DNA from: Faecalibacterium prausnitzii
GTDB taxonomy: Bacteria; Bacillota; Clostridia; Oscillospirales; Ruminococcaceae
Assembly (NCBI RefSeq): GCF_003287405.1
Contig: NZ_PRLD01000007.1
Location: forward strand, 1 to 64,000
Reading direction: 5' to 3'
Length of the DNA: 64,000 nucleotides
Below the pieces are notes generated by a model. That model did not search any database. It was given only the letters and a program-made list of their open reading frames with translations, and had not been told where the DNA came from. The translations under genes and the position numbers were made by a program. Positions 27,589-44,463 of this stretch are shown here, piece after piece; position 1 is the stretch's first letter; every line of letters starts with the position of its first letter.

Positions 27589-27635
27589 AGAGACAAATTG
27601 TCAAGGACTTTTTAATCAAATTCACAAAAAATCTA

Positions 27636-27675
27636 CAAAAAAGGTGCCAGAAGCGCTATATGGCTCCTGACACCT
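27636..27675 (-). terminator. Leftward terminator at the IME-2 left end
   Basis: AGGTGTCAGGAGC pairs imperfectly with GCTTCTGGCACCT and is followed on the minus strand by TTTTTT. It would stop the leftward transcription leaving the TnpW-side genes before it enters virD4. Confidence 0.7.
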
Positions 27676-27686
27676 CGTTTGATAGA

Positions 27687-28052: not shown

Positions 28053-28129
28053 TTTCGTGTCCTCCTTGACAAAAATTTTGGTGCGTACCATCATCAGTTT
28101 AGCACAAGGCGGCTTCGTTTATCAGTCTG

Positions 28130-28324: not shown

Positions 28325-28367
28325 GGCGCTCCTTTCTCCGAACGGGTCTGTGCCGCCCGGTAAAAAA

Positions 28368-29231: not shown

Positions 29232-29962
29232 ACGGTTTCATCCTCCTTTACGCTGTAATCACGGTTGCGGGTGGGCGGGGCCGCCTTTTTCGCGTCCTCA
29301 CCGGCCCAGCGCCGGATGGTGGCGGCATGGCTCTGATACCGCTTACCGGTAGAGGCCATGTATTCGGACAGCTTTTCGATGTACTGGCCCCATACAGTGG
29401 GAAAACTGGCCTGCAAGTCTGCCAGTTCCTCGTCCGTCAGGAAAACATTCTGGTAACGGCCATAGGCGCGGGCGGAGCATCCCTTCTCTATCTCTCTCTT
29501 TATCTCTATCTCTTTCTCTAACTCTATCTCTATCTCTGGTGGACGAATGTCGGACAAATGTCCGCCGTTTGTCCGGGGCGCAGAAAGAGCCTTGTTTTGG
29601 AGCCTCGCAGCCCGCTTTCGCTCAGCCTCGGTGGAGGACTGGCCGATTAAAAGTTCGATGTTGCTCATGTAGAATGTGCCGCTGTCCAGCACTTCCACAA
29701 GGCCCAGCTTCAAAAAGATCTGCAAGGCTCTCTCCACAGTGCCGATCTGCTGGCGGGTGATGGTGGCGATCATCTGCGCCGTGTAGGGGATGTCCTCGTC
29801 AAGCTGGAGCCGCCCGCCATGTTTCAGCGATTTCAGATACAGCTTGAGCAGAATGTTGGAATACAGCACACCGTCCTGCATACTTTCCAGCAGCACGATG
29901 GAATCATCGTCAAAATAGTTTTCTTTGAGTTTCAGGTAATAATATTTTCGGTTGTCTGACAT
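29228..29962 (-). CDS. DnaD/phage replisome organizer-like replication initiator of IME-2
   Basis: A 244-residue protein closely related to 20251-20991: MSDNRKYYYLKLKENYFDDD start, winged-helix region YSNILLKLYLKSLKHGGRLQL, then a linker EIEIELEKEIEIKREIEK and DnaD-like C-terminus YIEKLSEYMASTGKRYQSHAA. As in the paralogue, the linker is encoded by a pyrimidine-rich plus-strand tract of repeated TCTATCTCT units at about 29485-29540. It overlaps the DnaC-like gene, forming a two-gene replication module. Confidence 0.88.
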   Translation of the reverse strand: MSDNRKYYYLKLKENYFDDDSIVLLESMQDGVLYSNILLKLYLKSLKHGGRLQLDEDIPYTAQMIATITRQQIGTVERALQIFLKLGLVEVLDSGTFYMSNIELLIGQSSTEAERKRAARLQNKALSAPRTNGGHLSDIRPPEIEIELEKEIEIKREIEKGCSARAYGRYQNVFLTDEELADLQASFPTVWGQYIEKLSEYMASTGKRYQSHAATIRRWAGEDAKKAAPPTRNRDYSVKEDETV

Positions 29963-30075
29963 AGGGTTCCTCCTTGGGGTTTCTCTTGGGATTCTGTACG
30001 CATTTTAAGGCTATTTTAGGGGGCAGAGGATAAATCTATCAGACTGCCTTTGACACCCCCGAAAAAAGCCTTGAT

Positions 30076-30474
30076 TTACAAGGGTTTTTCAGCCCCTAAA
30101 GCGTGACATTTCTCCCGTTGTTTCCGCTTGCGCTTTGCGGCGTTGATCCGCTTCATGCGTGCGGCACATTCCGGGCAGTATTTGGCTCGGTTGGAACCGG
30201 GGGTAAACAGCGCCCCGCATACGGAGCATTTCTTCGCATTCAGCCGGTGGAACAGTGCCGTTTCCAGTTCCTTATCCTGCGGCAATACCGCCGCCCGAAA
30301 CCACCTGCACAACAGGGAGTAGGAAATAGACTGGACACAGACACATTCTTCCCCATCGTCCAGGGCGATACAGTTTCCGTCGATGTAGTTACAGCACTCA
30401 TGCACCAGCCTCCGCACTCTGCGGTACTGGCGGTAATCCATGACGGGGATAGGTTCAGACTTATTGTTCTTCAT
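30076..30474 (-). CDS. Cysteine-rich zinc-ribbon protein
   Basis: A 132-residue protein. The N-terminal half has MDYRQYRRVRRLVHECCNYI and CIALDDGEECVCVQSISYSL. The C-terminal half holds a zinc ribbon KKCSVCGALFTPGSNRAKYC followed by PECAARMKRINAAKRKRKQ with a basic tail. This looks like a small DNA-binding protein. It is upstream of the replication genes on the same strand, about 115 bp away. Function unknown. Confidence 0.65.
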   Translation of the reverse strand: MKNNKSEPIPVMDYRQYRRVRRLVHECCNYIDGNCIALDDGEECVCVQSISYSLLCRWFRAAVLPQDKELETALFHRLNAKKCSVCGALFTPGSNRAKYCPECAARMKRINAAKRKRKQREKCHALGAEKPL

Positions 30475-30529
30475 AAATGATTTCTTTCATAAAGCCGGCA
30501 ACCTCCTCAAATGAATTTATTATTAAATA

Positions 30530-30576
30530 TTCGTGCAAAGTATTGTTTTCTTCGTGCAAATGGCATATACTATAAT
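30530..30576 (+). promoter_or_regulatory. Promoter/operator of the RelB-YafQ unit
   Basis: Two copies of TTCGTGCAAA (30530-30539 and 30551-30560) lie 21 bp apart, two helical turns, just before a -10 TATAAT at 30571-30576. The -35 is weak and overlaps the second repeat. Direct repeats in this place fit autorepression by a ribbon-helix-helix antitoxin. Confidence 0.6.
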
Positions 30577-30600
30577 TGCCAGCAGAAAGGGGTTGATCGT

Positions 30601-30879
30601 ATGGCTGGAAATACCACAAACATCAGTATCCGCATGGACGCAGATTTGAAAGCGCAGGCGGACGCACTGTTTACTGAACTTGGCATGAACCTGACTACGG
30701 CGTTTAACATCTTTGTGCGCCAGTCGCTTCGTGAAGGCGGCATTCCCTTTGAAGTAAGGCTGGAACAGCCGAACAAAGAAACGGTTGCTGCCATGCTGGA
30801 AGCGGAAAGGATTGCAAAAGACCCGTCTGTAAAGGGCTACAATGACCTTGACGAGTTGTTTGCTGACCTGAAAAGATGA
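30601..30879 (+). CDS. RelB/DinJ-family antitoxin
   Basis: A 92-residue protein starting MAGNTTNISIRMDADLKAQA, with the ribbon-helix-helix block ELGMNLTTAFNIFVRQSLRE and GGIPFEV that define RelB/DinJ antitoxins. The C-terminal tail (DPSVKGYNDLDELFADLKR) would wrap the toxin. The ATG at 30601 follows AAAGGGG; a frame open from 30511 overlaps the operator and is not used. It overlaps the toxin gene by ATGA. It neutralises YafQ and likely represses the operon. Confidence 0.9.
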   Translation: MAGNTTNISIRMDADLKAQADALFTELGMNLTTAFNIFVRQSLREGGIPFEVRLEQPNKETVAAMLEAERIAKDPSVKGYNDLDELFADLKR

Positions 30880-31166
30880 AAGAAACCAAATATACCGTCA
30901 AGTACACGACCAGTTTCAAAAAAGACTACAAACGAGCCATCAAGCGTGGCTTGAAGATCGAGCTGCTGGAGCAGGTCGTAGCGTTGCTGGCGATGGGCGA
31001 ACCGCTGCCGGATAAGAACCGTGACCATGACCTGTCCGGCGATTGGGCAGGCCATCGGGAATGTCATATTCTCCCGGACTGGCTGCTTGTCTACCGCATA
31101 GAAGATGATGTTCTGGTGCTGACGCTGGCCCGCACCGGCACACACAGCGACTTGTTCGGCAAATAA
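30876..31166 (+). CDS. YafQ-family mRNA interferase toxin (RelE superfamily)
   Basis: A 96-residue protein, KYTTSFKKDYKRAIKRGLKI at the start, then PLPDKNRDHDLSGDWAGHRE and CHILPDWLLVYRIEDDVLVL, ending TGTHSDLFGK. The histidines in DHDLSG, GHRECH and the C-terminal THSDLF are the YafQ catalytic region. Such toxins cut mRNA on the ribosome. With the antitoxin it should stabilise IME-2 by post-segregational killing. It is the only rightward transcript in this part of the element. A terminator follows at 31174. Confidence 0.9.
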   Translation: MKETKYTVKYTTSFKKDYKRAIKRGLKIELLEQVVALLAMGEPLPDKNRDHDLSGDWAGHRECHILPDWLLVYRIEDDVLVLTLARTGTHSDLFGK

Positions 31167-31173
31167 ACCGACT

Positions 31174-31207
31174 GCCGCCGTATGGGGAAACCTGTACGGC
31201 GGTTTTT
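31174..31207 (+). terminator. Terminator after the toxin gene
   Basis: GCCGCCGTA pairs with TACGGCGG around a short loop, followed by TTTTT. It lies eight bases after the yafQ stop. Confidence 0.8.
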
Positions 31208-31273
31208 CTGTGTGCAAAAGGGTGTCGTGAAACGCGACGCACCTAAAAGGAGTACGCCAAAACGCGGTAGCCC

Positions 31274-32710
31274 TTACCGCTCCGGTTCCCGGTCGTGAGG
31301 TTTGTCCAGTTCCTGTCGGGACAACTGCTCGGCGGTTTTGCGGAGCCGTTCCACTGCTTTCAAATCCTCCCGCATGGCTTTCATGGCAAGCGTGTCCGTC
31401 TGCTTTCCAGCGGCCAGCTGGTCAATTTCCAGCTGCCATGCCTTTGGGGTGATTGCCTCGCCGCTGTCTTTCAGTTCTTTCAGATACCGGGCCGCTGCGT
31501 CATACAGAATCAGTTCCCGGCTGTGGCGCTGTTCAAACTGTTCCCGTTTTTCCGGCTTTACTTTGGCAAACTGCTTGTGGATGGACTTGTACTGGTTGTA
31601 CTGTTTCCACATCTCCCCGCGCTCGGTAAGGGTAGTGATCCGGCGCTCGGCCTTGACGATCTTTCCCCGCAGGTCATAGTAACGGCTGTTCATATCAGCG
31701 ATTTTTTCATGAAGCTGCTGCATAGACTGGATGCCGTTTGCCTGTAAAAAGCTGAATAGTGCAGCGCTTTCCTGCAAAGCCCGGATTTTGCCGGTGCGGG
31801 TGCGGGGAGCGTTCAACTGCTGCTGGGCTTCCCACAAGGCGGTCAAGCTGCTTTGCTGCGTTTGTGGTTTTTCCGCTTCGTCTTTCGACCAGAGATAAAG
31901 ACGGGTAATGCGGGCTTTGATTTCTTTCAGCAGCTTGTTGTCGGCGGCGATCTGCCGGTTTACTTCACCCTTGTCGGTGCGGATGCCGCGCTTTTCCATT
32001 TGGCTGGCGGCTGGCCCCAGATGGACAGAGGGAATCTTATCAATGCCCTGCCGCTTGTAGCTGCGGTGGTCTACCAGGGCGGGATGACCGGCGGCCTCCA
32101 ATGCCCGGTTGGTGCAGGCCGCCCATGCCGCCCGCCAAATCTCCACATTTCCTTTGTCGTTCCAGTCGGTGGTGTCCTCCCGGTGGTTCTTCCAGCCGCC
32201 TTTCCCGTCCGGGATACGCTGGCCGTTTTCGTCCAGGTCGTATGCCTTGCGGCACTTTGCGCCCCACTGTCCATTTTCTTTCAGAGGCCGGAGCGTCAGC
32301 ATGATATGGACATGAGGGTTGCCGGTTCCCTTGTCATGGATAGCAAAGTCGGCGCACATTCCTTTGTCTACAAAGTTGTCCTTCACATAGGCACGCACAA
32401 GGGCAAGCTGCTCTTCGCCGGACAGTTCACGGGGCAGGGCTGCTTCAATCTCGCGGGCAAGCTGGCTGTCCCTTGCTTTCTCGATTTGCTCCACGCTGTT
32501 CCAGAGGATAGATCGGTCTGCAAATTCCGGCGGCGCGTGGGCAGGCAGCATGATCTCCGCATGAACAATGCCGCCTTTCCGGGTGTAGTCGTGGGTCATG
32601 CCGTCCCATTCATTTGTCAGCTTGGTTCCGCTGCGGTAAGCAGCTGCGGCAACAGCAGAACGGCCTGCGCTGCGCTTGATAATACTGACGGGGATATGAC
32701 AGAAATCTAT
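31274..32710 (-). CDS. MobA/MobL-family relaxase (MobQ-like) of IME-2
   Basis: About 478 residues. The protein opens IDFCHIPVSIIKRSAGRSAV, then DYTRKGG and the metal-binding histidines in GTGNPHVHIMLTLRPL, followed by a helical charged C-terminal half. There is no ATG at the proper place: AAAGGAGG is followed six or seven bases later by ATA (32710). A GTG at 32719 overlaps the ribosome-binding sequence, and the frame opening at 32872 is an unrelated leader through oriT. I place the start at ATA with reservation. It belongs to the same family as the relaxase at 7967. Confidence 0.88.
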   Translation of the reverse strand: MDFCHIPVSIIKRSAGRSAVAAAAYRSGTKLTNEWDGMTHDYTRKGGIVHAEIMLPAHAPPEFADRSILWNSVEQIEKARDSQLAREIEAALPRELSGEEQLALVRAYVKDNFVDKGMCADFAIHDKGTGNPHVHIMLTLRPLKENGQWGAKCRKAYDLDENGQRIPDGKGGWKNHREDTTDWNDKGNVEIWRAAWAACTNRALEAAGHPALVDHRSYKRQGIDKIPSVHLGPAASQMEKRGIRTDKGEVNRQIAADNKLLKEIKARITRLYLWSKDEAEKPQTQQSSLTALWEAQQQLNAPRTRTGKIRALQESAALFSFLQANGIQSMQQLHEKIADMNSRYYDLRGKIVKAERRITTLTERGEMWKQYNQYKSIHKQFAKVKPEKREQFEQRHSRELILYDAAARYLKELKDSGEAITPKAWQLEIDQLAAGKQTDTLAMKAMREDLKAVERLRKTAEQLSRQELDKPHDREPER

Positions 32711-32863
32711 GGGTGGCACCTCCTTTCGGCGGGGATATTTCAGGCTCCGTGGAGCCGAACAAACGCGAAGCGGGTGTTTGGCTGCGCGGGGCGCACAAGG
32801 GGTTTGGGGAGTGTAGCGCCCCATCGCGGACGAAGTACGCAATGCCCCCGGCAGGGCGCACAG

Positions 32864-32892
32864 CACCGGCAACGGTGTATAAGTGCGCCCTT
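32864..32892 (+). other. Candidate origin of transfer (oriT/nic) of IME-2
   Basis: The hairpin CACCGGCAACGGTG (32864-32877) is followed after two bases by TAAGTGCGCCCTT (32880-32892), the MobQ nic core. A second inverted repeat CCCTTG/CAAGGG follows. The position and design match those at 9975-10014. Confidence 0.75.
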
Positions 32893-32905
32893 GTAAACAA
32901 GGGAC

Positions 32906-33196
32906 TTATGGCGTGTCCCCGGATTTTGGCAGGTTTGCAGTCAATTCCGCAGCCCCCGGAAGATGGGACAGGGTAATCAGAAATGCTTTGACCTCTGCGC
33001 CGGAAAGGTCAGGAGCCAACGGGAAAATCCCCTCCAAAACGGCTCCGCGCTCAATCAGGCGGCGGGTGCGAACCCTGCGTTCTTCGTTCCACTGCTTGTT
33101 CTCCAAAATCTTCTTTCGGTTTTCAAGCTGCCGAATCTCCTTCAGGACTTTCTCCCGTTCTTCTTTTTGATGGTGGGCTGTAATTTTTTCGTTCAT
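32906..33196 (-). CDS. DUF3847-type mobilization-region protein of IME-2
   Basis: A 96-residue protein, MNEKITAHHQKEEREKVLKE start, helical, with the shared block RRVRTRRLIERGAVLEGIFP and then LSGAEVKAFLITLSHLPG. GAGGTG precedes the ATG at 33196. It is homologous to 10068-10274 but longer at both ends, and occupies the equivalent place on the far side of oriT from the relaxase. Confidence 0.75.
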   Translation of the reverse strand: MNEKITAHHQKEEREKVLKEIRQLENRKKILENKQWNEERRVRTRRLIERGAVLEGIFPLAPDLSGAEVKAFLITLSHLPGAAELTANLPKSGDTP

Positions 33197-33224
33197 GTCA
33201 GGCACCTCTTTTCTTTGGAAATAC

Positions 33225-33686
33225 TCATAGATTGACCGTCCATTTCTGTCGAGCAAAGTACCGGCGCAGCCTCCGCAGTGCGGCATGGATGGATTTTCCC
33301 GCCTGTGATGGCGTGATACCCTCCATTGCGGCAATATCTTTCACTTTCATACCCAGCATATAGCGGGCATGGACACGGCGAGCCTGCATAGGCGGCAGGG
33401 AAGAAATGGCTTCGTACAATCGCCGTATCAATTCTTCGTATTCGGCTAATTCTTCTTTTTCTATCAGGTAGTCCTCCGGCGATGGCTGCGCCCAGCCGAT
33501 GGCGGCATTTTCGATTCCATCGTTACAATCGAGGGAATAAAACGCCTTATACCGGAACATCTTGCGATCTCTGGCGGCCTCGGCTCTCTTGTCCAGAAGA
33601 AACGCTTCGACGATCTCATCGGACACCTCCACAAAAATGTCCTCTTTGCAAAATGGATAATATTGTTTGAGATTGATGGTCTGCAT
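33225..33686 (-). CDS. Sigma region 4-like protein, first of three paralogues
   Basis: A 153-residue protein starting MQTINLKQYYPFCKEDIFVEVSDEI, a beta-strand-rich opening shared with the next gene. It ends in a sigma-type HTH: LPPMQARRVHARYMLGMKVKDIAAMEGITPSQAGKSIHAALRRLRRY. The ATG at 33686 follows GAGGG. It lacks a full region 2, so it is probably an accessory activator rather than a stand-alone sigma factor. It lies just downstream of a closely similar gene. Confidence 0.75.
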   Translation of the reverse strand: MQTINLKQYYPFCKEDIFVEVSDEIVEAFLLDKRAEAARDRKMFRYKAFYSLDCNDGIENAAIGWAQPSPEDYLIEKEELAEYEELIRRLYEAISSLPPMQARRVHARYMLGMKVKDIAAMEGITPSQAGKSIHAALRRLRRYFARQKWTVNL

Positions 33687-33696
33687 AGGCACGCCC

Positions 33697-34149
33697 TCAC
33701 TCTGTTTGAAAAAGGTCATCATAGCAGCGGCGCATATTCCGCAGCCCCCGGCGGATGGCAACGCTGACCTTGCTGCTGTGGACGCCCTCTCTCCGGGAGA
33801 TTTCCGGCTGCTTGATACCGGCAATGTAGTAGGCGTGAACACGGCGGGCCTGTGTCGGAGTGGCATGAGCCAGAGCCACCGGCAGAGCTGCAATCAGGTG
33901 CAGGCGGGTGGTCATTTCTTCTCGTTCCAGCAAAATATCTTCCGGCGATCTGCTGTGTTCCAGCGCGTAATTTTCCAGCCAGCTGTATGCGTCCAGAGAG
34001 TAGTAGGCGCGGTGGTAGACTTTCCGACGCTCATAGTTCTCCATCTCCCGCTTGGCCTGATACATCGCTGCCCATACCTCGTCCGTAACATCCACAAACT
34101 CGTCATGCCGGTAGTGGGGATACATCCACCGCAGATTGATTGTTTTCAT
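33697..34149 (-). CDS. Sigma region 4-like protein, second of three paralogues
   Basis: A 150-residue protein starting MKTINLRWMYPHYRHDEFVDVTDEV, with AKREMENYERRKVYHRAYYSLDAYSWLENYAL as linker and a C-terminal HTH region TPTQARRVHAYYIAGIKQPEISRREGVHSSKVSVAIRRGLRNMRR. The layout matches its downstream neighbour residue for residue in the first 40 positions, so these arose by duplication. The frame opens at 34275, but the homology starts at the ATG at 34149. Confidence 0.75.
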   Translation of the reverse strand: MKTINLRWMYPHYRHDEFVDVTDEVWAAMYQAKREMENYERRKVYHRAYYSLDAYSWLENYALEHSRSPEDILLEREEMTTRLHLIAALPVALAHATPTQARRVHAYYIAGIKQPEISRREGVHSSKVSVAIRRGLRNMRRCYDDLFQTE

Positions 34150-34252
34150 AGGCTTACCTCCTGAAAATCGGAGAGGATGACAGCTCGTCCGCTGTCCGCC
34201 CCTCGCTGAGATAAGGGAAATGATCCCTTTCACTTGGTAGCCAGAAAACAGG

Positions 34253-34666
34253 TCATTCGTTAAGCCTGTTCTCAAAGAAATTTATAAATTTTTTTCTGAC
34301 CGCCTCCACACTTTGATACACAGCCACTTTGGAGCAGCCGCACAGCACACCAATCTCTGCAAGGCTCAGTCCCTCAAGCGCATAGAGCAGGAACCGGCGG
34401 CGCTGGGCCTCAGTACAGGTGTCCAGAACAGCCATCAGCTCATGCAGCGTTTCCATGTGGCAAAGATATTCTTCCGGCGTTTCTCCGTAGGCTCCTACGC
34501 CTTCGGTGGTAATGATGTACTCGTCAAACTCCCGGCCATCCCAATGCCGCCGCTGTTCATGGAACAGGTTCTCCGTTTTGTGATCGGCCCGGTCAAGAAA
34601 TTCATAGACTTCCAGCGTGACCTCCACGGCCACAGCTTGTCCGTTATAATTGATGGTAACTTCCAT
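34253..34666 (-). CDS. Sigma region 4-like protein, third of three paralogues
   Basis: A 137-residue protein starting MEVTINYNGQAVAVEVTLEVYEFLDRA, with TEAQRRRFLLYALEGLSLAEIGVLCGCSKVAVYQSVEAVRKKF as the region 4-like HTH. It is more diverged than the other two but shows the same strand-then-HTH layout and the ExP-EEYL linker. GGAGG precedes the ATG at 34666. It is first in the leftward series toward the DUF3847 and relaxase genes. Confidence 0.75.
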   Translation of the reverse strand: MEVTINYNGQAVAVEVTLEVYEFLDRADHKTENLFHEQRRHWDGREFDEYIITTEGVGAYGETPEEYLCHMETLHELMAVLDTCTEAQRRRFLLYALEGLSLAEIGVLCGCSKVAVYQSVEAVRKKFINFFENRLNE

Positions 34667-34686
34667 CTGCCTTTCCTCCATTCAGA

Positions 34687-35147
34687 TTTTTTCGGGAAAA
34701 TCTGAATGGGGCGGCGGAGAACGGCACCGGGGATAAAGTTCGGGCCATGCTGGCCCGATGTTACGGCTCCACAGGGACAAAAAAGCGCCCGGACGGCATA
34801 AAGCCATACGAGCGTAATAGAGTATATTTTGCTGTTTAGTTACATGGTATAGTGCATACTTCTGACCGCATTGCTCCGCTGCTGGGAACAGGCTTTTTTT
34901 AGCTGGTGCAGGTCATGGGGACTGTGAAAAAAGGCAAAAATAGACACGGCGGCAATCCTCCTATGTGCCGCCGTGGATTTACACGGTGTTAGGTCGTCGT
35001 TGGTTTAGGGTAGACGAAAAGAAACGGCGGCTCTGATTTCTCAAAACCGCCGCCAGGGTATCTAGAGTAAGCGCACAAAATCAACCTGCCCAGCTACGGT
35101 TTTTTTCTTTCCCCATTAGGCGGGGCAGGTTTAAAAGAATATGAAAA
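34687..35147. other. Intergenic region with several inverted repeats
   Basis: About 460 bases with no recognisable gene. It holds CACGGCGGCA/TGTGCCGCCGTG near 34945-34978 and AACCTGCCC/GGGCAGGTT at 35083-35131. These may be terminators or regulatory hairpins upstream of the sigma-like genes. Confidence 0.4.
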
Positions 35148-35186
35148 GCCGATAACAGCAGTCATGTTAGCCTGCGTGTTATCGGC
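35148..35186 (-). terminator. Leftward terminator after the KTR gene
   Basis: GCCGATAACA pairs with TGTTATCGGC, and the minus-strand product continues with TTTTCATATTCTTTT. It ends the leftward transcript of the KTR gene and possibly the ABC operon. Confidence 0.75.
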
Positions 35187-35193
35187 TCTGCGT

Positions 35194-35367
35194 CTATGCG
35201 TCTGGCTCTCTAATAACGGATATATTCAGTTGCTTTACATGAATGAGCGTTTCCTGTTTACATTTTGGACAGAACAAGGGGAAATTCCTTAATTCCGTGT
35301 CAATTCGTATTTTTATTCGGGTTTTATTATGGCATATAGGACAACTAACCCAACTTGTCTCTTTCAT
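35194..35367 (-). CDS. Short cysteine-rich KTR-type protein
   Basis: A 57-residue protein: MKETSWVSCPICHNKTRIKI, then RIDTELRNFPLFCPKCKQET and a beta-rich tail LIHVKQLNISVI. Two CPxC pairs bound a KTR motif, matching the small 'cysteine-rich KTR' proteins scattered on Firmicutes mobile elements. It probably binds zinc. It begins five bases before the end of the ABC permease gene and is followed by a terminator. Function unknown. Confidence 0.8.
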   Translation of the reverse strand: MKETSWVSCPICHNKTRIKIRIDTELRNFPLFCPKCKQETLIHVKQLNISVIREPDA

Positions 35368-35372
35368 CAAAA

Positions 35373-36479
35373 TTACCCCGTAACTTGATGTTTCTTTGAT
35401 ATATTTTTTGTTAGTCTATAAAATACGAATATCAATCCAACATTAAGGATGATCATAAAGACCGGCTGGCTCATACCGAAATATGTTTTCATATCAGAAA
35501 ATATACCGTTTGCATGAAGCATAAAAATCGGGCAAATTTCCTGCATTTTTTGTAAAACAGGAAGGCTATCATTAAAATCAAACACAACTGGCAAGAAGCA
35601 GATGACGCAAGAAGTAATAAGCGCTGTAACAGGAGAACTCATTTGAGCACTTAAAAACAATGTAATAGTTGTCAAGGCTACAATCCCCAAAATATTCAAT
35701 ATTACAGAGATAAAGAACATTTGCAAAAAGGTCAAATTATATATTGAAGAAGCATAATGTAATGAAGATTGAATGCTTACATTCCACCCCTGTAACCCAT
35801 AGGTACAGCCATACAGAACTAAATTTAGCAGTAAATACAAGAGGTATGTGCCAATTACAACTTCCAAGGCCGCTATAATTTTTGAAGTTGTGAGTTTGGT
35901 TCGGCCATACCGAGCCGAATAAATAATGCTATCTGTATGAAGTGCATACTCTTCTGAGAAAACAGGAGATAGAGTGATTACAACAATTAAACATATCATT
36001 ATGGACAAGATGCTCCCCATTCCAGATAATAGCTTATCCCAGCCATCGCAATATCCTAAAGTCACAGTTGGACTATTTGGATATGCTGTTTCGAGTGACT
36101 TAAAACTACCATCAGAATTTGTCAAATATTCCAGAATCGCCGCTTGGTCACGATAAACATGAACAGCAGAAAAAGCAGAATTTTCATCTTGTCCAACAGT
36201 TGCTTGTTTTGCTTGGTCGATTTTTTCTTGCATAGTAAGTAATGTATTTTGAGAGAGTTTTCCTTCAAATATTTCTGCTACTTCCTTCCGTTGTTCAATG
36301 GCTGTAAAACCGCTTGCTAATGCCATTTTTTCAAGGTCATAATCATAGAAAACATTTTGATAATTAAATTGAAAAAAGAAAAAATAGGCAACGATAAGAA
36401 CCACACCAGCTAAAAACAACATTCGTGTTTGCTTTCTCGAACATATTTTATTTCGTTCTGCTTTTATCATTTCATTCAT
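35373..36479 (-). CDS. ABC-2 type membrane permease
   Basis: A 368-residue protein starting MNEMIKAERNKICSRKQTRM, a membrane segment at about residues 20-37, a roughly 140-residue extracytoplasmic loop, then five hydrophobic segments from about residue 150 to the C-terminus. This is the ABC-2 exporter layout (GlnP/LanFEG or NatB type). The start ATG overlaps the stop of the ATPase gene and has GGAGG nine bases upstream. It is AT-rich compared with the mobilization genes, pointing to acquisition from another host. Likely a peptide or bacteriocin immunity/export permease; the substrate is unknown. Confidence 0.8.
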   Translation of the reverse strand: MNEMIKAERNKICSRKQTRMLFLAGVVLIVAYFFFFQFNYQNVFYDYDLEKMALASGFTAIEQRKEVAEIFEGKLSQNTLLTMQEKIDQAKQATVGQDENSAFSAVHVYRDQAAILEYLTNSDGSFKSLETAYPNSPTVTLGYCDGWDKLLSGMGSILSIMICLIVVITLSPVFSEEYALHTDSIIYSARYGRTKLTTSKIIAALEVVIGTYLLYLLLNLVLYGCTYGLQGWNVSIQSSLHYASSIYNLTFLQMFFISVILNILGIVALTTITLFLSAQMSSPVTALITSCVICFLPVVFDFNDSLPVLQKMQEICPIFMLHANGIFSDMKTYFGMSQPVFMIILNVGLIFVFYRLTKNISKKHQVTG

Positions 36480-37347
36480 GCTCGGATACCTCCGCAAAAT
36501 AGTATAAATACAAATCTTCCAATGTTGGATCAACATTCCAAGCGGTTCTGCATGGTGCTTCTTGAGAAATAATCCTCAGCCGTTCTGCACCATTATTATG
36601 TTTCAGATTTGCTGTTACATAGTTCAATTCTAATTCTTCGGCCTCTTTTCGAGATACATCACATTCCCAAACACATTTTTCAATCGGCTTCAAAATTTCT
36701 TCTGGAGAACCATGTTGAATTAACTCGCCATTTTTCATAATCAGAATCTCATTTGCGATATATTCAACATCAGAAACAATGTGAGTGGACAAAATTACAA
36801 TTTTATTTTCTGCCAAAGAACTAATCAGATTCCTAAACCGCACCCGCTCTTTCGGGTCAAGTCCAGCTGTAGGTTCATCCAAAATCAAAATACGGGGATC
36901 GTTTAGTAATGCTTGAGCAATTCCCAAGCGTTGTTTCATACCGCCGGAAAAAGTTTTGATTTTTTCGTTTTTCTGTGTGAGCAGATCAACAACCTGCAAC
37001 AGCTCCATTGTGCGATTATGGGCTTTTTTAGGCGGCAGCCCCTTTATTGCAGAGATATACATCAAAAATTTATACGCTGTAAAGTTAGGATAATAGCCAA
37101 AATTTTGTGGCAGGTAGCCTAAGATATTACGATATTTCTCGCCCAAATCATGAATGTTTTTCCCGTTAAAAAAAATTGCTCCTTTCGTTTCAGTTTGGAC
37201 ATCGCAAATCATTCGCATCAAAGTTGTCTTGCCCGCACCATTTGCCCCGAGTAGACCATAAACACCATTTGTTAATTTTGCGCTGAAATGATTTACAGCT
37301 TTTTTTCTTCCATATTCTTTTGAAAGATCATTTATTGTAAGTTCCAT
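36472..37347 (-). CDS. ABC transporter ATP-binding protein (CcmA-like)
   Basis: A 291-residue ATPase starting MELTINDLSKEYGRKKAVNH. Walker A LLGANGAGKTTLMRM, the Q-loop in YLPQNFGYYPNFTAY, signature FSGGMKQRLGIAQAL, Walker B ILILDEPTAGLD, and H-loop LSTHIV are all present, then a 90-residue C-terminal extension. This is the CcmA/BcrA type pairing with ABC-2 permeases. The ATG at 37347 is favoured over the frame start at 37437, which would overlap the upstream permease more. It overlaps both neighbouring genes. Confidence 0.92.
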   Translation of the reverse strand: MELTINDLSKEYGRKKAVNHFSAKLTNGVYGLLGANGAGKTTLMRMICDVQTETKGAIFFNGKNIHDLGEKYRNILGYLPQNFGYYPNFTAYKFLMYISAIKGLPPKKAHNRTMELLQVVDLLTQKNEKIKTFSGGMKQRLGIAQALLNDPRILILDEPTAGLDPKERVRFRNLISSLAENKIVILSTHIVSDVEYIANEILIMKNGELIQHGSPEEILKPIEKCVWECDVSRKEAEELELNYVTANLKHNNGAERLRIISQEAPCRTAWNVDPTLEDLYLYYFAEVSEHE

Positions 37348-38105
37348 ATCAATTCTCCAATCATTTTTTCTTTTTTCAAGTACAGTTGAAGTGTTTTCCC
37401 TAATAGGATAATGGATAACACATAAAATCCAATCCATCCCCAGAACATAGACGCTTCAAAAATAAATCGCTGATGAAGTACAAGAGAAAATGTTCCAGAA
37501 AGAAAAATCATACAAGCAATTAAATGATACAAGCTATCGTTTGTCCTGCTTTTCGCACATATAAAAAGATAACAAGTGCAAGAAATATTAAACGGAATCA
37601 AACCATACAACACCATTTCAATCATTGATTTCTGGTAAATATATGCCATTGAAATTAAAATGACTGTTATTAGGAAAAGGTTGATTACTCCAATAATCAG
37701 CATACGACCTGCTATAATTTTTACCAGCGTTGTTCTACTAGACTGTTCAATTTCCCACATACCATAGATGTTGCTTTTAGATATTTCTATTGCACCTAAT
37801 AACGCAAGGAATGGAACCATAACTGCAAGGATTGTCAATGGATAATAAAATGGAACCCTCCATTGGCCCAGGATACATGCTAATAATACTGCACATATAG
37901 TGAGTATTATTTGAATAATCCAGAAAGAAAGCGGCAGAAATTGAAGTTGGTTCAATATAATATCTCGCATTGAATTTTTATTGAATTCAGAACTATTCAT
38001 GTAACTTTTTCCAGCTACGATTACTGCTTCAATTTTAGGTTCAGATGGAGCAGGCGTTTCACAACTCTGCAACCATTCTAATACACCATTTTGTTTTTGG
38101 GTCAT
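37332..38105 (-). CDS. Second membrane subunit of the ABC-2 system
   Basis: A 257-residue membrane protein with a 60-residue cytoplasmic N-terminus (MTQKQNGVLEWLQSCETPAP) and about six hydrophobic segments, for example FWIIQIILTICAVLLACILG and LTILAVMVPFLALLGAI. No ATPase or enzyme motif is present. It overlaps the sigma gene upstream (ATGA-type overlap) and the ATPase gene downstream, so sigma factor, permease, ATPase and permease are a single translationally coupled operon. Confidence 0.75.
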   Translation of the reverse strand: MTQKQNGVLEWLQSCETPAPSEPKIEAVIVAGKSYMNSSEFNKNSMRDIILNQLQFLPLSFWIIQIILTICAVLLACILGQWRVPFYYPLTILAVMVPFLALLGAIEISKSNIYGMWEIEQSSRTTLVKIIAGRMLIIGVINLFLITVILISMAYIYQKSMIEMVLYGLIPFNISCTCYLFICAKSRTNDSLYHLIACMIFLSGTFSLVLHQRFIFEASMFWGWIGFYVLSIILLGKTLQLYLKKEKMIGELIWNLQ

Positions 38106-38650
38106 ACATTATCGCCTCCTCTAAAATCAGCCAAATATCGTTCCAGTTTTTTAATCCCCTGTTGGAGCCTAGATTTTACAGTAGAAACACTCGCTTTTGT
38201 AATGGTTGCAATCTCTCGGATTTTCAAATCATAATAAAATCGTAAAATGATGACCTCTTTTTGATAGTCCGGTAATGTGTTGATTGCATATTGAACTTGC
38301 GCTTTAAGTTCGTTAAGCTCAATTTTTTCAAAGGCATTATCAGTATCTTCTATATCTTCAAGAGTTTCTAAATCCATATACAGGGGTTTTGCTTTCTTAG
38401 TATAATTGTTACAGGTATTAACAGCAATCGTTAGCAGGTAGTTTTGAAATTTCCCTATCTTTCGTACTGATTGAATATTCTCCAACAATTTCAAGAAAAC
38501 ATCTTGTGTAATATCTACGGCGGTATCTGGATCGCCGTTCAATCGCCGACAACAAAATAGATAAATTGACTGATAATATTTTCGGACAATTATCTCAAAT
38601 GCATCTGTGTCACCCGACTGGATTTTTTTTATTAGTATGAAATCTTCGAT
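38102..38650 (-). CDS. Sigma factor leading the ABC-2 operon; start codon unclear
   Basis: The first start-like codon (TTG 38542) would cut region 2 in half. In the same frame the sequence continues upstream through IEDFILIKKIQSGDTDAFEI and IVRKYYQSIYLFCCRRLNGD, a normal sigma region 2.1, before a stop near 38656. No ATG, GTG or TTG lies at that end. An ATG at 38671 reads MEGGDKVSK and is in another frame, so a one-base shift near 38650 or a rare start must be assumed. Region 4 (TLPDYQKEVIILRFYYDLKIREIATITKASVSTVKSRL) is complete. It probably directs its own operon. Confidence 0.75.
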   Translation of the reverse strand: MEDFILIKKIQSGDTDAFEIIVRKYYQSIYLFCCRRLNGDPDTAVDITQDVFLKLLENIQSVRKIGKFQNYLLTIAVNTCNNYTKKAKPLYMDLETLEDIEDTDNAFEKIELNELKAQVQYAINTLPDYQKEVIILRFYYDLKIREIATITKASVSTVKSRLQQGIKKLERYLADFRGGDNV

Positions 38651-38885
38651 ACCTTGTCACCGCCTTCCATGTGTAAAACGCCTTACACTTAATATACAAC
38701 TGAATAACCCAAAAGGATTTAACTTTAGAATTATTTCTTTTACTTTTTTTATTTCCATTCTATTGTAATTCCTGTTCTTGAAAAATATAAGATGTAATAT
38801 ATGAATTATAAACTTCAACCAACCTGCATATAGCAACATTCCACGGGCAAAGTATGAATTATACAATGTAACTGGGTGATGTTAT

Positions 38886-39254
38886 ATGGCGAAAGTTGAA
38901 GATTGTCCCGGTTTTGAAACCTTTGGTGCAGATGTCAAAGCCGCACGAGAGGCAAAGCGTCTTGCACGAAAAACATTGGCAGAAATGGTTGGGATTGAAT
39001 GGCGGTATCTTGCCAACATTGAGAATCAAGGTGCGATTCCGAGCTTGCCTGTGATGATCCAGTTGATTAAGGTCTGCGGACTTCCCGTAGAGCGATATTT
39101 TAACCCGGAGATCATGCGGGAAGAAAGCGATCAGCGGCAGCGGGTCAGCCACAAGCTGAAGCTCTGTCCTGAACAATACCTGACGATTATTGAAGGTGCC
39201 ATAGACGGGGCGCTCAAAATGGAACAGACTGCGAAGCAGAAGGAGGACGCATAA
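38886..39254 (+). CDS. XRE-family helix-turn-helix regulator
   Basis: A 122-residue protein with HTH FGADVKAAREAKRLARKTLAEMVGIEWRYLANIENQGAIPSLPVMIQLIKV at about residues 15-65, and a C-terminal helical part ending KQKEDA. The ribosome-binding site is weak. It is divergent from the sigma/ABC operon (about 235 bp apart) and may repress it or the element's transfer genes. A hairpin AGAAGGAGG/CCTCCTTCT (39238-39269) at its 3' end could terminate both this gene and the convergent one. Confidence 0.82.
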   Translation: MAKVEDCPGFETFGADVKAAREAKRLARKTLAEMVGIEWRYLANIENQGAIPSLPVMIQLIKVCGLPVERYFNPEIMREESDQRQRVSHKLKLCPEQYLTIIEGAIDGALKMEQTAKQKEDA

Positions 39255-39281
39255 TCGCGGCCTCCTTCTGGCGTTTCTATA

Positions 39282-39581
39282 TCAAGTTTCCCAGCATTTT
39301 TCCAAAAGTTCCCGGCATCTCTGCTGAATTTCTCCAGTTTCTGTCACAGTTAGGTCACGGTCATTTCCAGTAATCTTATCTTCCAGAAAGTTGGCGTATG
39401 TACCCAACAAAGCGTTCCGTAAATCCTCCGGGGTTTTCTGTATTTCAGCGCTGTACCAGTCATTCCGGTGGGGTTCCCATGCCATCAATGTATAACCGTG
39501 GCTGGTCTGAACCACCTCATACAGTGGATCATCATCCAGATATGCCTGAAACACTTTCAAAATCTTTTCAAAGGTCAGCAT
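39282..39581 (-). CDS. Uncharacterized mobile-element protein
   Basis: A 99-residue protein starting MLTFEKILKVFQAYLDDDPL, with YEVVQTSHGYTLMAWEPHRN and a C-terminal helix QQRCRELLEKC. GGAGG lies eight bases before this ATG. It is located between the TnpV gene and the HTH regulator, on the recombinase strand. No membrane segment or known motif; function unknown. Confidence 0.65.
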   Translation of the reverse strand: MLTFEKILKVFQAYLDDDPLYEVVQTSHGYTLMAWEPHRNDWYSAEIQKTPEDLRNALLGTYANFLEDKITGNDRDLTVTETGEIQQRCRELLEKCWET

Positions 39582-39597
39582 TTCCCGCACCTCCCAT

Positions 39598-39951
39598 TCA
39601 GCTGCAAATCAGTTCCCTGATTAAAATTTCCTCAATCTGTGCCGTTAATGTGTTCATCAGCCCCACCCAACGCATAGGGTCACAGGCTTTCAGTTCTTCC
39701 GTGACACCCGCAGTCTCCATCATGTGAGGCAACATGGTTTCCACACGCCCCTGTGCTGTCCGCTCAATCTCTAACAGGTGTGGATACAGCTTCTCGCTCA
39801 TCAGCAGATGGTTGTAGAGAATGGGGCGATGTTCCTTTAGGTAGGATTTTCGCATTCTGCCGTACTTGCCGATAGAAGTTTCCGGCTGTTCAGAAAGTTT
39901 TAGGTTGGGTATATCATAATCTCCACAACGAATGTAAGTCAACTTACTCAT
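39598..39951 (-). CDS. TnpV-like transposon protein of IME-2
   Basis: A 117-residue protein, MSKLTYIRCGDYDIPNLKLS start, then the TnpV block IGKYGRMRKSYLKEHRPILY. AAAGGAG is seven bases before the ATG at 39951. It follows the recombinase by about 25 bp, the canonical tnpX-tnpV order. It is clearly related to 18468-18839. Confidence 0.85.
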   Translation of the reverse strand: MSKLTYIRCGDYDIPNLKLSEQPETSIGKYGRMRKSYLKEHRPILYNHLLMSEKLYPHLLEIERTAQGRVETMLPHMMETAGVTEELKACDPMRWVGLMNTLTAQIEEILIRELICS

Positions 39952-39977
39952 ATTCATTCTCCTTTGCTTCGTGATGA

Positions 39978-41858
39978 TTAGACTGCTGCGCTGGCTGCTA
40001 TGCTGCCTTTGCGCGGTTCTTCTTTTGGTAGCTGACCGATAGTAGAAAAAACACCTTTTTTCATATCCTCAGCCCGGATCAGGGCTTTCTTAGCGTCCAT
40101 TTCCGCTTTTTTCTTCGCCTTGATTTTGTCCTCATACCGTTTCTGTGCACCGCTGGCTTTCCGCTTCAAATAGTTCTGATGGAGCCTGTCCTTGCGTTCT
40201 TCTTTTTTCCGCAATTCTTCCTGTTCCTCTGGAGTTAAAGGAACCGGCTGTAAGGATGGCGGGATATAGCGTCCTAAAAAATTGAAGTGGATTTCAATTT
40301 CCTGCGTGGTGTCCTGGGTGCCTTTTCGGGCGCGTTCGTGGACAAGGATTTTCTCTACAAACTCGTTGAGCATGGTGTTTGTCAGAGTGTCAAAATTCTC
40401 GTACTTATCAATCAAGGCTATAAATTTCTCCGCTGATTTCTGGCTTTGCTCGTAGCCGGTAACAGCCTTTTCCAGCTCCGCAATTTCAATCTCAAGTGCG
40501 TCCTGCTCTTTGGCATACTGTGCATCAAGTGCCCTATATCGTGCATCCGGCAGCTTGCCGAGGGCGTTGTCCTCATAGATTTTGCAAATCAGTTTTTCCA
40601 GTTCTCCGGATCTCTTTTGAGCAGCGGCCAGACGCCTGCGCTTTTTCGCTATATCGGCACTCTGTTGGGCAACCTGCGTTTCCTGAACGGCGTGAATAAA
40701 TTCCGTCCGGTCATTTTTGGAATATTCAGCGATAGCCCGGAGCGTGTCAGAAACCAATGTCAGGATAGCACTCTCATTGATACGGTGTTGTGTAGGGCAT
40801 AGTGTCCCACACGGAACTTTGGTATAATTGGAACAGGTATATTGAGAAATCCGCTTGCCATTGTTGGTGCGGTGGACATACATCTTGCCGCCACAATCGG
40901 CACAATAGAGCAAACCTGTGAGGGGAGCCGCTTCGCCCCAGCCGTTTGGATAACGCCGTACATTGCTGCGGATTTTCTGCACCATATCAAAGGTCTGCTG
41001 GTCGATAATGGCTTCATGGGTATTCTCAAAGATCGTCCATTCGTCCTCAGAAACATAGTGGCTTTTCTTGTCCTTAAAGTGTTTGCGGGTCTTGAAATTG
41101 ATGGTATGCCCTAAATACTCTCGTTTTTTCAAAATGTTCACGATGGTAGATGATCCCCATCCATAGGGGTCTTTGACCGGCTTTGAACGGTTCACACCCT
41201 CGTTGAAGCGGGCAAGGTGTACGACAGGAATTTCAATCCGGTCTGTGGATAGTTTGCAAGCAATCTGATAAGGCCCATATCCCTCCAGCGTGAGGGAAAA
41301 GATACGGCGTACCACTTCGGCGGCTTCTTCATCTACCAGCCAATGCTCCCGCTTTTCGTCCCATAAGTAGCCGTAAATCACGGTGCCTGTCAGGTGCTTA
41401 CCACTCATGCCTTTTGACTTAAACACAGAGCGGATTTTCCGGCTGGTATCACGGGCGTAAAATTCATTCATGATGTTGCGGAACGGGGTAAAATCGTCAT
41501 CACCTTTCAGACTGTCTACACCGTCGTTGATGGCAATCAGACGAACACCACGCTGCCGCAAAACCTCCATAACCTGACCGACCTTCAGATAGTCGCGTCC
41601 TAACCGGCTCATGTCCTTGATGACGATTGCCTCTACACGCCCTGCCTCCACTTCCTCCATCATCGCCAAAAATCCGGGGCGGTCAAACCGGGTGCCTGAG
41701 ATACCGTCATCTGTAAAATGCGTAGGATTTGGCAGCCCGTTCCGGCGAGCAAAATCCTCCAACATCTGTTTTTGGTTGGATATGGAATTGCTCTCGCCCT
41801 GTAACTCATCGTCCCGGCTCAGGCGCTCGTACAGTGGGGTGATTTTTTCGTTTCTCAT
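39978..41858 (-). CDS. Large serine recombinase (TnpX family) of IME-2
   Basis: A 626-residue recombinase. Catalytic serine in YERLSRDDELQGESNSISNQ; then IVIKDMSRLGRDYLKVGQ, FRNIMNEFYARDTSRKIRSV, recombinase-domain blocks GYLWDEKREHWLVDEEAAEV and TIFENTHEAIIDQQTF, the zinc ribbon GLLYCADCGGKMYVHRT with CSNYTKVPCGTLC, and a coiled coil at about 400-470. The C-terminus is lysine-rich. It starts 91 bp from the right end of IME-2 and should catalyse excision at the CC/CC boundary sequences. Confidence 0.94.
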   Translation of the reverse strand: MRNEKITPLYERLSRDDELQGESNSISNQKQMLEDFARRNGLPNPTHFTDDGISGTRFDRPGFLAMMEEVEAGRVEAIVIKDMSRLGRDYLKVGQVMEVLRQRGVRLIAINDGVDSLKGDDDFTPFRNIMNEFYARDTSRKIRSVFKSKGMSGKHLTGTVIYGYLWDEKREHWLVDEEAAEVVRRIFSLTLEGYGPYQIACKLSTDRIEIPVVHLARFNEGVNRSKPVKDPYGWGSSTIVNILKKREYLGHTINFKTRKHFKDKKSHYVSEDEWTIFENTHEAIIDQQTFDMVQKIRSNVRRYPNGWGEAAPLTGLLYCADCGGKMYVHRTNNGKRISQYTCSNYTKVPCGTLCPTQHRINESAILTLVSDTLRAIAEYSKNDRTEFIHAVQETQVAQQSADIAKKRRRLAAAQKRSGELEKLICKIYEDNALGKLPDARYRALDAQYAKEQDALEIEIAELEKAVTGYEQSQKSAEKFIALIDKYENFDTLTNTMLNEFVEKILVHERARKGTQDTTQEIEIHFNFLGRYIPPSLQPVPLTPEEQEELRKKEERKDRLHQNYLKRKASGAQKRYEDKIKAKKKAEMDAKKALIRAEDMKKGVFSTIGQLPKEEPRKGSIAASAAV

Positions 41859-41882
41859 AGCTGTACCTCCTGAAACAAAAAT

Positions 41883-41941
41883 GCTCTAAGTGATTGCTTC
41901 ACTAACCATGACAAAATCATGATTAAGAAGTCACTTAGAGC
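41883..41941. repeat. Subterminal palindrome at the IME-2 right end
   Basis: GCTCTAAGTGA (41883-41893) is inverted as TCACTTAGAGC (41931-41941), with a second palindrome CATGA/TCATG inside (41908-41922). It lies between the recombinase start and the element end, so it may be the recombinase binding site, its promoter operator, or both. Confidence 0.6.
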
Positions 41942-41949
41942 ATATATCA

Positions 41950-42383
41950 CCGGCGGCCAGCTTGTAAAGTTTGTACTGCCGCCCGGCAAAGCTGTTGGGC
42001 TTCTTCTTCGCCAGTTCCTCAAACAGCAAATCCACCGGGTTTTGGTATTCCTCGTCATCCTCCAGCACCTGCATGGTGTTGAGCATCTCCAACAGGGTAG
42101 CGAAGTTTTGTTCCTCCACCGGGGCTTCATAATGCAGATAGGCGATCAGTGCGGTGAGCAAAAGACGTTCGCTTTTTTCCCAAAATGGGTCCCCGCCGGA
42201 CCCTTCACCCTTGGTGTTGGTCATCAGGGTTGTGACCAGTTTCAGAATGTCCTTTTCGCTGTGGACATAGGCGAAGGGGTTGTAGTGCATGGACTTTTTG
42301 AAGTTGATGGTGTTCAGGATTTTCAGCTTGTACCCGTTTTTCAGAAGTGCGTTCCCGCACTCGACCACGATACTACCTTTCGG
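41950..42383 (-). pseudogene. virD4: VirD4/TraG-type coupling protein, middle segment, fused to a transporter gene
   Basis: The frame reads PKGSIVVECGNALLKNGYKL, KILNTINFKKSMHYNPFAYV, GEGSGGDPFWEKSERLLLTA and ends KLYKLAAG at the IME-2 boundary, a standard stretch of the VirD4/TcpA coupling ATPase. The preceding part with the Walker A loop is absent: upstream of CCGAAAGG (42376-42383) the DNA is a GPH transporter gene. The downstream half is at 26773-27588. Even without IME-2 the protein would lack its N-terminus. Confidence 0.9.
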
Positions 42384-42816
42384 CACTGTTCTTCGTGACA
42401 AGAGCAGTCAGTGCAGAGTAAGCAATGTTGTTGGCAGTGTAGAATACAGCGTTCAGCAGAGTATATGCGATCAGGAACCATGCGTACTGTGCAAACTGTC
42501 CCAGATTGGTCGGGATGGCGAAGATCGCCACCAGCGTGATGGCGCAGCCAATGTAGCCGTACAGCATCCAAGGACGGGCTTTGCCCATTTTGGAGTGCGT
42601 TTTGTCGATCAGAGAGCCGAAGAAAATGTCCGTCACACCGTCCAGCAGTTTGGAAAATGCAATCAGAGTGCCGACAATACCGGGGTTCAGGCCAACGGTG
42701 TTGGTCAGATAGATCATGACGAAGGAGGACAGGAACGCATACACCACGTTGCCCGCAATATCGCCTGAACCATAGCCGACTTTATTATACCACTTTAGAT
42801 AACGCTTCTCAGTCAT
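42373..42816 (-). pseudogene. GPH-family sugar:cation symporter, truncated after about 147 residues
   Basis: It starts MTEKRYLKWYNKVGYGSGDI and has the family motif LLDGVTDIFFGSLIDKTHSKMGKARPW and four membrane segments, ending TALVTKNSAER. Family members are about 450-500 residues with twelve segments, so two thirds are missing. The break is at the junction with virD4, where the two genes share CCGAAAGG. The divergent AraC regulator beside it is the usual partner of such transporters. A glycoside or oligosaccharide substrate is inferred from the family. Confidence 0.85.
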
Positions 42817-43065
42817 TGTGCTTTCTCCCATCTTGCTTGTTTTGTGTGGGCGCGACCAATCTGCTGCGCACTTCAGACTGGAATTGTCATTCCGCAAGTT
42901 GCCCAAATCTCTTGCGTTTCGTCTGAAAATATTATAGAATCTAATGGGACGAAAAGATATAGACAAGATGGAACAAAATATGCACAAAATCAAAGAGTTT
43001 GTAATTTTTTGATAGAACATTTCCCAAATCACTGTAAAATCTCTGAAGATGAGGAGGACGCAGGG

Positions 43066-43929
43066 ATGTATTTCAACTCAGGATATTTAAACAACTCCCG
43101 TTTGGATTTCAAAGACTACTCAAAGCCGCTGGTCGTAGGCAGCTGCGGCACTTATCGCTTGAAAAAACGCCCTCAGCTGCCTACTTTTTGGGCAAAGGGC
43201 CGCAGAGACTATCAAATCCTCTATGTGGCATCCGGTAAAGCACACTTCTGGTTCGATGGTGTTGAGGAAGTGGTGACTTCTGGACACATGGTGCTTTATC
43301 AGCCGAAAGAAATCCAGAAGTATGTCTACTATGTAGAAGACCACCCGGAGGTGTTCTGGATTCACTTTACAGGATATGATGTCAAAAACATCCTGAACTA
43401 TCGCGGAATACCATTGGACAAGCACGTTTTTTACAGCGGCACACTGCCGGATTACAAAATGCTGTTCCGAAAGATCATCCGGGAACTGCAGCAATGTGAA
43501 TATGGCTATGAAGACTATATTGCTTCTCTCTTCAACATCATTCTGCTTTTAGTAAGCAGGAAACAGCAGGAAAGCGAGAAAACAACTACGAGCATCCCGG
43601 AAGAAATCGAAGCCGCCGTTGCCTACTTTAACGAGAACTATAACACAAAGGTCAGTGTGGACGATTACGCAGAATCGCTGCATATCAGTACGAACTGGTT
43701 TATCCGTAATTTTAAGCAGTACATGAAAATAAGCCCTGCACAATACATCCTGTCCCTTCGGATGGTAAATGCGCAGAGCTTATTGGAGAACACCGAATAC
43801 AATATTGGAGAAATTGCAGAGATCATAGGGTATGATAACCCACTCTATTTTAGCCGGGTATTCAAGAAAGAGTATGGTGTCAGTCCGGCACAGTACCGAA
43901 AGAATCTGGAAGAATCTACTGAAAAATGA
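43066..43929 (+). CDS. AraC-family transcriptional regulator
   Basis: A 287-residue regulator. The N-terminal cupin-like sensor domain (about 1-150) has DYQILYVASGKAHFWFDGVE and HPEVFWIHFTGYDV. The C-terminal pair of HTH motifs (about 185-285) includes VSVDDYAESLHISTNWFIRN and YNIGEIAEIIGYDNPLYFSRVFKKEYGVSPAQYRK. GAGGAGG lies eight bases before the ATG at 43066. It diverges from the broken GPH transporter gene and would have activated it in response to a sugar. The 250-bp region between them (42817-43065) holds the divergent promoters; a weak rightward -10 TATAGA is at 42933. Confidence 0.9.
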   Translation: MYFNSGYLNNSRLDFKDYSKPLVVGSCGTYRLKKRPQLPTFWAKGRRDYQILYVASGKAHFWFDGVEEVVTSGHMVLYQPKEIQKYVYYVEDHPEVFWIHFTGYDVKNILNYRGIPLDKHVFYSGTLPDYKMLFRKIIRELQQCEYGYEDYIASLFNIILLLVSRKQQESEKTTTSIPEEIEAAVAYFNENYNTKVSVDDYAESLHISTNWFIRNFKQYMKISPAQYILSLRMVNAQSLLENTEYNIGEIAEIIGYDNPLYFSRVFKKEYGVSPAQYRKNLEESTEK

Positions 43930-44035
43930 GGGAGCGGCTGCATGATTATAACCATAAAAACAGAAAATCTTGCAACAAACCAGTGATTTGCTGCGTTATC
44001 CGGATAAAAGGTTTTATAGAGAGGAGCCGAAGATA

Positions 44036-44233
44036 GTGAAAAAACTGGTAGTAGACGTTGGTGGTATGCTAATTGTGCAGTATTTGATATTTTACTTTGT
44101 TGAAATAAGATTAGGGGAACAAGCGACCTTTACAAAGTTTATAACTAACAATTATATCCTTACTTTTTGGATAATTTATCTTGCAAGTCGGATTGTGAAT
44201 TGCAAAATTAAAAAGCCCCGCAATGAGAAATAA
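44036..44233 (+). CDS. Small membrane protein
   Basis: A 65-residue protein with GTG start at 44036 (GGAG nine bases upstream): VKKLVVDVGGMLIVQYLIFY, then a polar turn, and a second hydrophobic segment YILTFWIIYLASRIV with basic tail. Two membrane helices are predicted by eye. No family recognised. An ATG-less longer frame from 43970 is less likely. Confidence 0.45.
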   Translation: MKKLVVDVGGMLIVQYLIFYFVEIRLGEQATFTKFITNNYILTFWIIYLASRIVNCKIKKPRNEK

Positions 44234-44346
44234 ATCTAAAGTAGAAATACGCAATTCCTGACTTTTACACAGACACAGCAAAAGGCGGGAGCTTCCCACA
44301 ATAAGGAAAGCCACCGCCTTCACGGTTGCAGACCCTAAATTCATGC

Positions 44347-44375
44347 TGGACATTTGCGCAAAATTATGGTATAAT
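44347..44375 (+). promoter_or_regulatory. Promoter of the tRNA-Gly gene
   Basis: A -35 TGGACA (44347-44352), a 17-bp spacer and a perfect -10 TATAAT (44370-44375), with TGG just before it as an extended -10. The tRNA begins 14 bases downstream. Confidence 0.75.
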
Positions 44376-44388
44376 GCATTCTGCAATT

Positions 44389-44463
44389 GCGGGTATAGTA
44401 CATCGGCTAGTATATCAGCCTTCCAAGCTGAGGAGGTGGGTTCGATTCCCATTACCCGCTCCA
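44389..44463 (+). tRNA. tRNA-Gly (anticodon UCC)
   Basis: Acceptor stem GCGGGTA pairs with TACCCGC, followed by T and encoded CCA. The anticodon arm is TCAGC-CTTCCAA-GCTGA, giving anticodon TCC. The T arm GTGGGTTCGATTCCCAT is standard. It lies about 2 kb from the mobile-element junction; no partial copy of its 3' end is seen elsewhere in the window. Confidence 0.95.

Follow-up and report, generated by a model that had tools for sequence, protein, structure and literature searches.

Bacteria make illegitimate deletions with short microhomology, through alternative end joining or slippage. The locus described here resembles such deletions in its non-homologous parents, its five shared bases and the truncated genes on both sides; it differs in that it offers one product of one presumed event, in which the deletion itself is something that we infer. 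Faecalibacterium prausnitzii, the source of the DNA, is presented, in the parts of PMC6295017 drawn on here, as a species of high genome plasticity, with many ICE and IME and very low synteny. This locus, from the same genus, agrees with that description in having integrative elements nested in one another and conjugation genes that are broken, whereas the join reported below has no mention in those parts of the source. On the side of the conjugation machinery, the closest described proteins are the VirD4-like conjugal transfer proteins of the CD1115 family (NF045973, cut-off 250 bits). A Faecalibacterium relative of the gene (G029, locus L074) is intact, encodes 588 aa and scores 549 bits against this family, and its gene is adjoined by DUF3801, a 163-aa ORF, ParB, ParA and RepA_N, in that order. 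The copy studied here differs in having lost its N-terminal codons and in being split by a 14.4 kb insertion.

The window, that is, the whole stretch of 64,000 bases that was analysed, corresponds to positions 1-64000 of a contig of 166,303 bases (C62) in the 3.03 Mb draft assembly of its genome (G000), which consists of 70 contigs. On its minus strand, an internal portion of a gene for a virD4-type coupling protein (41950-42383) meets the remnant of a GPH-family transporter gene (42373-42816), and the minus strand through the join (42383-42373) reads ...AAGAACAGTGCCGAAAGGTAGTATCGTGG.... Both parents were compared with the window, using 11 canonical transporter loci (L010-L020) and nine virD4 loci. 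The transporter homology, of 95.7-96.8% over ~726 bases in the 11 canonical loci, stops at 42375, while the virD4 homology begins at 42383 (94.7% to G014). Neither gene runs past the join, just as the first-pass annotation had stated, and no match that spans it was found in the other genomes searched.

The same annotation credited the two genes with eight shared bases. The eight-base word CCGAAAGG does occur at 42383-42376 on the minus strand, but the parents share exactly only the five bases CCGAA (42379-42383, minus strand). All 11 canonical transporter loci read CCGAACAGG, with AACAGTGCCGAACAGG at the join, and CCGAAAGGTA is present in six of the nine virD4 loci, where the preceding base is C or T as opposed to G in the transporter. 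Past CCGAA, the transporter carries one extra base, after which AGG matches again in both parents; the earlier reader, to whom only the joined sequence was visible, had assigned AGG to both genes. The alignments of the two parents overlap by nine positions on the window, of which the exact run is five, and there is no long homology between them. When the canonical AraC-transporter stretch of G028 was joined at random, 200,000 times, to the 1.8 kb of DNA surrounding the virD4 gene of G014, at least five shared bases were obtained in 0.58% of cases and at least eight in 0.024%. The five-base overlap is above typical chance, and less striking than the eight bases claimed earlier.

A few identical bases placed exactly at the breakpoint, between parents without long homology, are what characterizes a microhomology-type junction. 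The join has no recombinase-type features, unlike the CC-edged insertion ends at 27588 and 41950, in line with the original view that this is not a recombinase-type end; nor was the recurrence of the breakpoint that is expected of a site-specific recombinase found in the 30 other genomes of the genus, which include no further strain of the species. These genomes were searched with a 1,051-base query across the join (E 1e-50, up to 14 candidates scored per genome). Eighteen of the 30 match one or both sides of the query, with the transporter-side matches stopping at base 626 or before and the virD4-side matches beginning at base 612 or after, and none of the scored candidates spans the join. 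A 21-base word taken across the junction has no match in the genome_contigs and viral_contigs collections, both of which may leave out this genome. As no spanning match was found among the candidates scored, the join is known from one draft assembly only.

At the DNA level, virD4 is indeed fused to the transporter, but no fusion protein is encoded: the virD4 sequence lies in another frame, and the transporter frame reaches a stop codon after the join, which rules out a gene fusion. From its ATG at 42816, the remnant (PF13347; TIGR00792 positions 1-134 of 437) comprises 146 native residues, 145 of them identical to G028, and one residue derived from virD4 DNA, giving a frame of 147 aa before the TAG at 42375-42373. 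The intact transporter of G028 has 456 residues, so that 310 of the 456 are lost in the window copy. Its TIGR00792 score of 120.6 bits falls under the curated cut-off of 231.35, in keeping with a gene of which a third is left. Divergently from the remnant, in the window as in the relatives, lies a gene for an AraC-family regulator with a full-length frame of 361 aa (42844-43929, plus strand; PF12833, PF00165 and PF02311), whose protein is 96-98% identical in six named Faecalibacterium loci and 83% identical in a seventh. The AraC-transporter DNA of the window as a whole is 96-97% identical to its canonical relatives. The region upstream of the AraC gene (43931-44320) is present in a single copy in G000; its positions 43954-44240 are 97.6% identical to G017, and a terminator-like stretch at 44253-44320 occurs also in G008 (90%). 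The full canonical transporter stretch is present in 11 of the 31 genomes of the genus. Locus decay is also seen, in the form of an internal deletion in G014 (L021) and of a remnant of ~0.2 kb in G027 (L023).

On the other side of the join, the virD4 remnant (PF02534, 42.6 bits; 95% identical to G014 and 94% to G029) lacks its 173 N-terminal codons, the cut falling after codon 173. Its C-terminal part and adjoining sequence lie far apart from it, at 26478-27588 on the minus strand (89% to L074 8626-9738), and are followed by the left part of the host element that is still present (18982-26478, minus strand), collinear in pieces of 78-98% with L074 691-7546. According to Pfam, this part includes a relaxase (21350-22978), a replication-organiser-like gene (20251-21102) and a sigma-factor-like gene (24422-24922). 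The two portions of virD4 are separated by the 14.4 kb insertion (27588-41950), whose flanking positions, 41950 and 27588, are adjacent in G029. The insertion has the 2-bp core CC at both edges, and its ends look recombinase-made, of the kind that a large serine recombinase would leave; one is encoded at its right edge (39978-41858, minus strand; PF00239, PF07508, PF13408 and PF14287). In G002, positions 5983-9558 of locus L075 match window 38799-42383 at 95%, and the recombinase gene seems to lie at the same place in virD4 as in the window.

The first-pass annotation had further proposed that the right side of the element and two thirds of the transporter were removed. This stands for the gene parts, with 146 of 456 residues kept and 173 virD4 codons lost; the loss of the DUF3801-ParB-ParA-RepA end follows only if the element is G029-like. 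In that case, ~4.4 kb, to the end of RepA, would have been lost, and element ends differ among relatives. An element deprived of a RepA-ParA-ParB end may be disabled. As to the nested array, which the first-pass annotation took to be frozen in the chromosome, a recombinase gene is still present at the edge of its inner insertion. A displaced end of the G029 type, expected at 90% identity or higher, was not found in G000 among 40 of the 177 candidates, the pieces recovered being 73-77% identical, with one of 287 bases at 85%. For an end of the G002 type, the 40 candidates scored out of 66 likewise yielded pieces of 71-82% identity, besides a single 281-base piece at 86%. DNA on contig C68, 91-95% identical to the virD4-adjacent DNA of G014, was considered as the displaced end and ruled out, as it forms a separate insertion of ~8.8 kb in another virD4 gene (L109 3162-11938), past which that gene continues as virD4 and not as transporter. 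This insertion splits virD4 near codon 103, and in G014 (L073) the 91-95% identical DNA adjoins virD4 at the same codon. Insertions appear to have struck virD4 genes repeatedly.

No reciprocal join, of the kind left by an inversion or exchange, was found in G000 among the candidates scored. The C-terminal part of the transporter on contig C25 was ruled out as a reciprocal product because it is part of an intact gene. This homologue aligns without a break over the full gene at 91% identity, has 458 aa by coordinates and scores 246.1 bits against TIGR00792, above the cut-off. The block around it shows 96.5-99.2% identity to G011 and is followed by ~7.6 kb of other DNA and then by a beta-galactosidase gene with glycosyl hydrolase family 2 domains, a gene that in G028 lies next to the transporter. 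In addition, a second truncated AraC-transporter copy is found on contig C23 (L046 5745-7202), cut ~39 bases before the cut on C62 and joined to different DNA. With an intact homologue on C25 and a further truncated copy on C23, the transporter piece of the window is an extra copy and not the native one. The transporter being broken here and its intact homologue kept on C25, the join is without evident function.

The position of the piece in the chromosome bears on how the join arose. A second unusual join (44321-44335), placed where flank homology starts in relatives, connects the AraC piece to a chromosomal flank that carries, near its start, a tRNA-Gly gene (TCC; 44389-44463, plus strand). 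The flank is collinear with loci L058, L061 and L062: homology begins at 44326 in G029 and G017 and at 44335 in G013, and extends to beyond 55 kb, as far as those stretches reach. The piece thus lies ~70 bp from tRNA-Gly in the window, whereas in the relatives the AraC-transporter pair is much farther from the tRNA-Gly block (G029, 44.8 kb; G013, 40.5 kb; G017, 629 kb). With this distance and the intact homologue on C25, the earlier implication that the native transporter suffered the cut is not supported. A deletion of 44 kb between tRNA-Gly and the AraC gene was set aside, since most of that DNA is on contig C11: its positions 2714-41083 represent ~38 kb of the chromosome found between tRNA-Ala and the AraC locus in G029.

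It is therefore hardly credible that a simple deletion at the native locus cut the genome's own transporter and removed the right side of the element in one event. The orientation of the piece relative to tRNA-Gly, which is the same as in G029 and G013, would agree with such an event, but the ~38 kb of intervening chromosome on C11 and the intact transporter with its beta-galactosidase-side flank on C25 contradict it, unless those contigs come from a second strain. A single deletion at the native locus also cannot account for the displaced position, which requires that the pair had been displaced or duplicated before.

The relatives indicate where the displaced piece may have come to lie. The gap between tRNA-Gly and tRNA-Ala measures 119 bp in G013, 569 bp in G029 and 3,132 bp in G017. 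In G000, contig C11 carries the tRNA-Ala gene and, next to it, a serine recombinase, and the piece of the window apparently lies at the tRNA-Gly edge of DNA inserted between the two tRNA genes. C62 and C11 would then be the two sides of one insertion, a link drawn from the relatives because C62 starts at window base 1. The tRNA interval of G017 matches the serine-recombinase gene beside the G029 element (96% over 1.7 kb), which indicates that elements enter this interval repeatedly. The interval (44321-44389; L072 1-2544) varies in size among G013, G029 and G017, holds recombinase-bearing DNA in G017 and G000, and is a probable insertion hotspot.

This setting raises the question of whether transporter piece and element had met at another place and were carried together to the tRNA-Gly/tRNA-Ala site within the insertion, with no deletion at the site itself. 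We regard such a capture as improbable. It would agree with the location of the piece right at the border of the insertion, ~70 bp from tRNA-Gly, and with the recombinase-bearing DNA held by the interval in G017 and G000. Yet the 30 other genomes of the genus contain no spanning match, and no contig encoding the AraC protein was found in IMG/VR, where five stretches matched a pattern and none was confirmed. Moreover, the order and orientation of the piece relative to tRNA-Gly, being those of G029 and G013, suggest a local origin.

A different concern is that the join at 42383, the one at ~44326, or both, are absent from the cell and result from a chimera of the assembly or the library. The draft state of the assembly with its 70 contigs, the lack of a spanning match in the 30 other genomes and the two odd joins bracketing a piece of less than 2 kb are all compatible with such an artefact, as is the finding that the piece represents the canonical allele, whereas the C25 locus of the same genome is G011-like. 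Against it, only five identical bases lie at the join and virD4 is matched elsewhere in G000 at no more than 70-77% identity, so there is no long shared word to mislead a short-read assembler, and the region 43900-44388 occurs once in G000. Misassembly through a repeat at 44253-44320 was also considered, and no second copy of that stretch was found in this genome. We regard an artefact as rather unlikely.

We consider it reasonably likely that an illegitimate, non-homologous event with a five-base microhomology left the join as its scar, the likeliest form of this event being a deletion beside a displaced extra AraC-transporter copy. The comparisons establish the two parents, the breakpoint, the gene parts that are missing and the extra copy, whereas the deletion and the sequence of events are deduced. 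It would probably be an ordinary DNA scar in a much-rearranged mobile-element region. In the proposed order of events, an extra AraC-transporter copy would first have arrived in the tRNA-Gly/tRNA-Ala insertion, beside a conjugative element. One illegitimate deletion with a five-base overlap would then have joined virD4 to the transporter after codon 146, taking the virD4-side end of the element and the last two thirds of the transporter. What speaks against an account by a single deletion is that two unusual joins flank the short piece. If the join is real and present in the cell, as this reading presumes, it adds one more illegitimate scar to a genus known for genome plasticity, and it illustrates that a gene may adjoin an integrated element without being in its native place; the general picture is unchanged by it.

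The two extra copies in G000, on C62 and C23, involve the same gene and different joined DNA, which could be read as the work of some process that repeatedly makes and disperses pieces consisting of AraC plus the transporter N-terminus in the genus. Such a process seems very improbable to us; for two events, it is nothing unusual that the cut points of C62 and C23 fall ~39 bases apart in a gene of 1.37 kb. At both contig ends, C23 and C25 have blocks in common (86% and 91%), which suggests that the C23/C25 block is duplicated. The first third of the transporter on C25 (L045 3927-6354) shows 84% identity to the window copy and the remainder 94% to the canonical gene, while the adjacent AraC gene is at 77%; the C25 transporter looks like a mosaic, which G011 shares. 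Finally, positions 3080-8436 of the GenBank record MT836864.1 (L008), deposited as "Bacteriophage sp.", match the virD4-ParB-ParA end of Faecalibacterium conjugative elements, so that the record seems to hold a piece of an ICE and not a phage.
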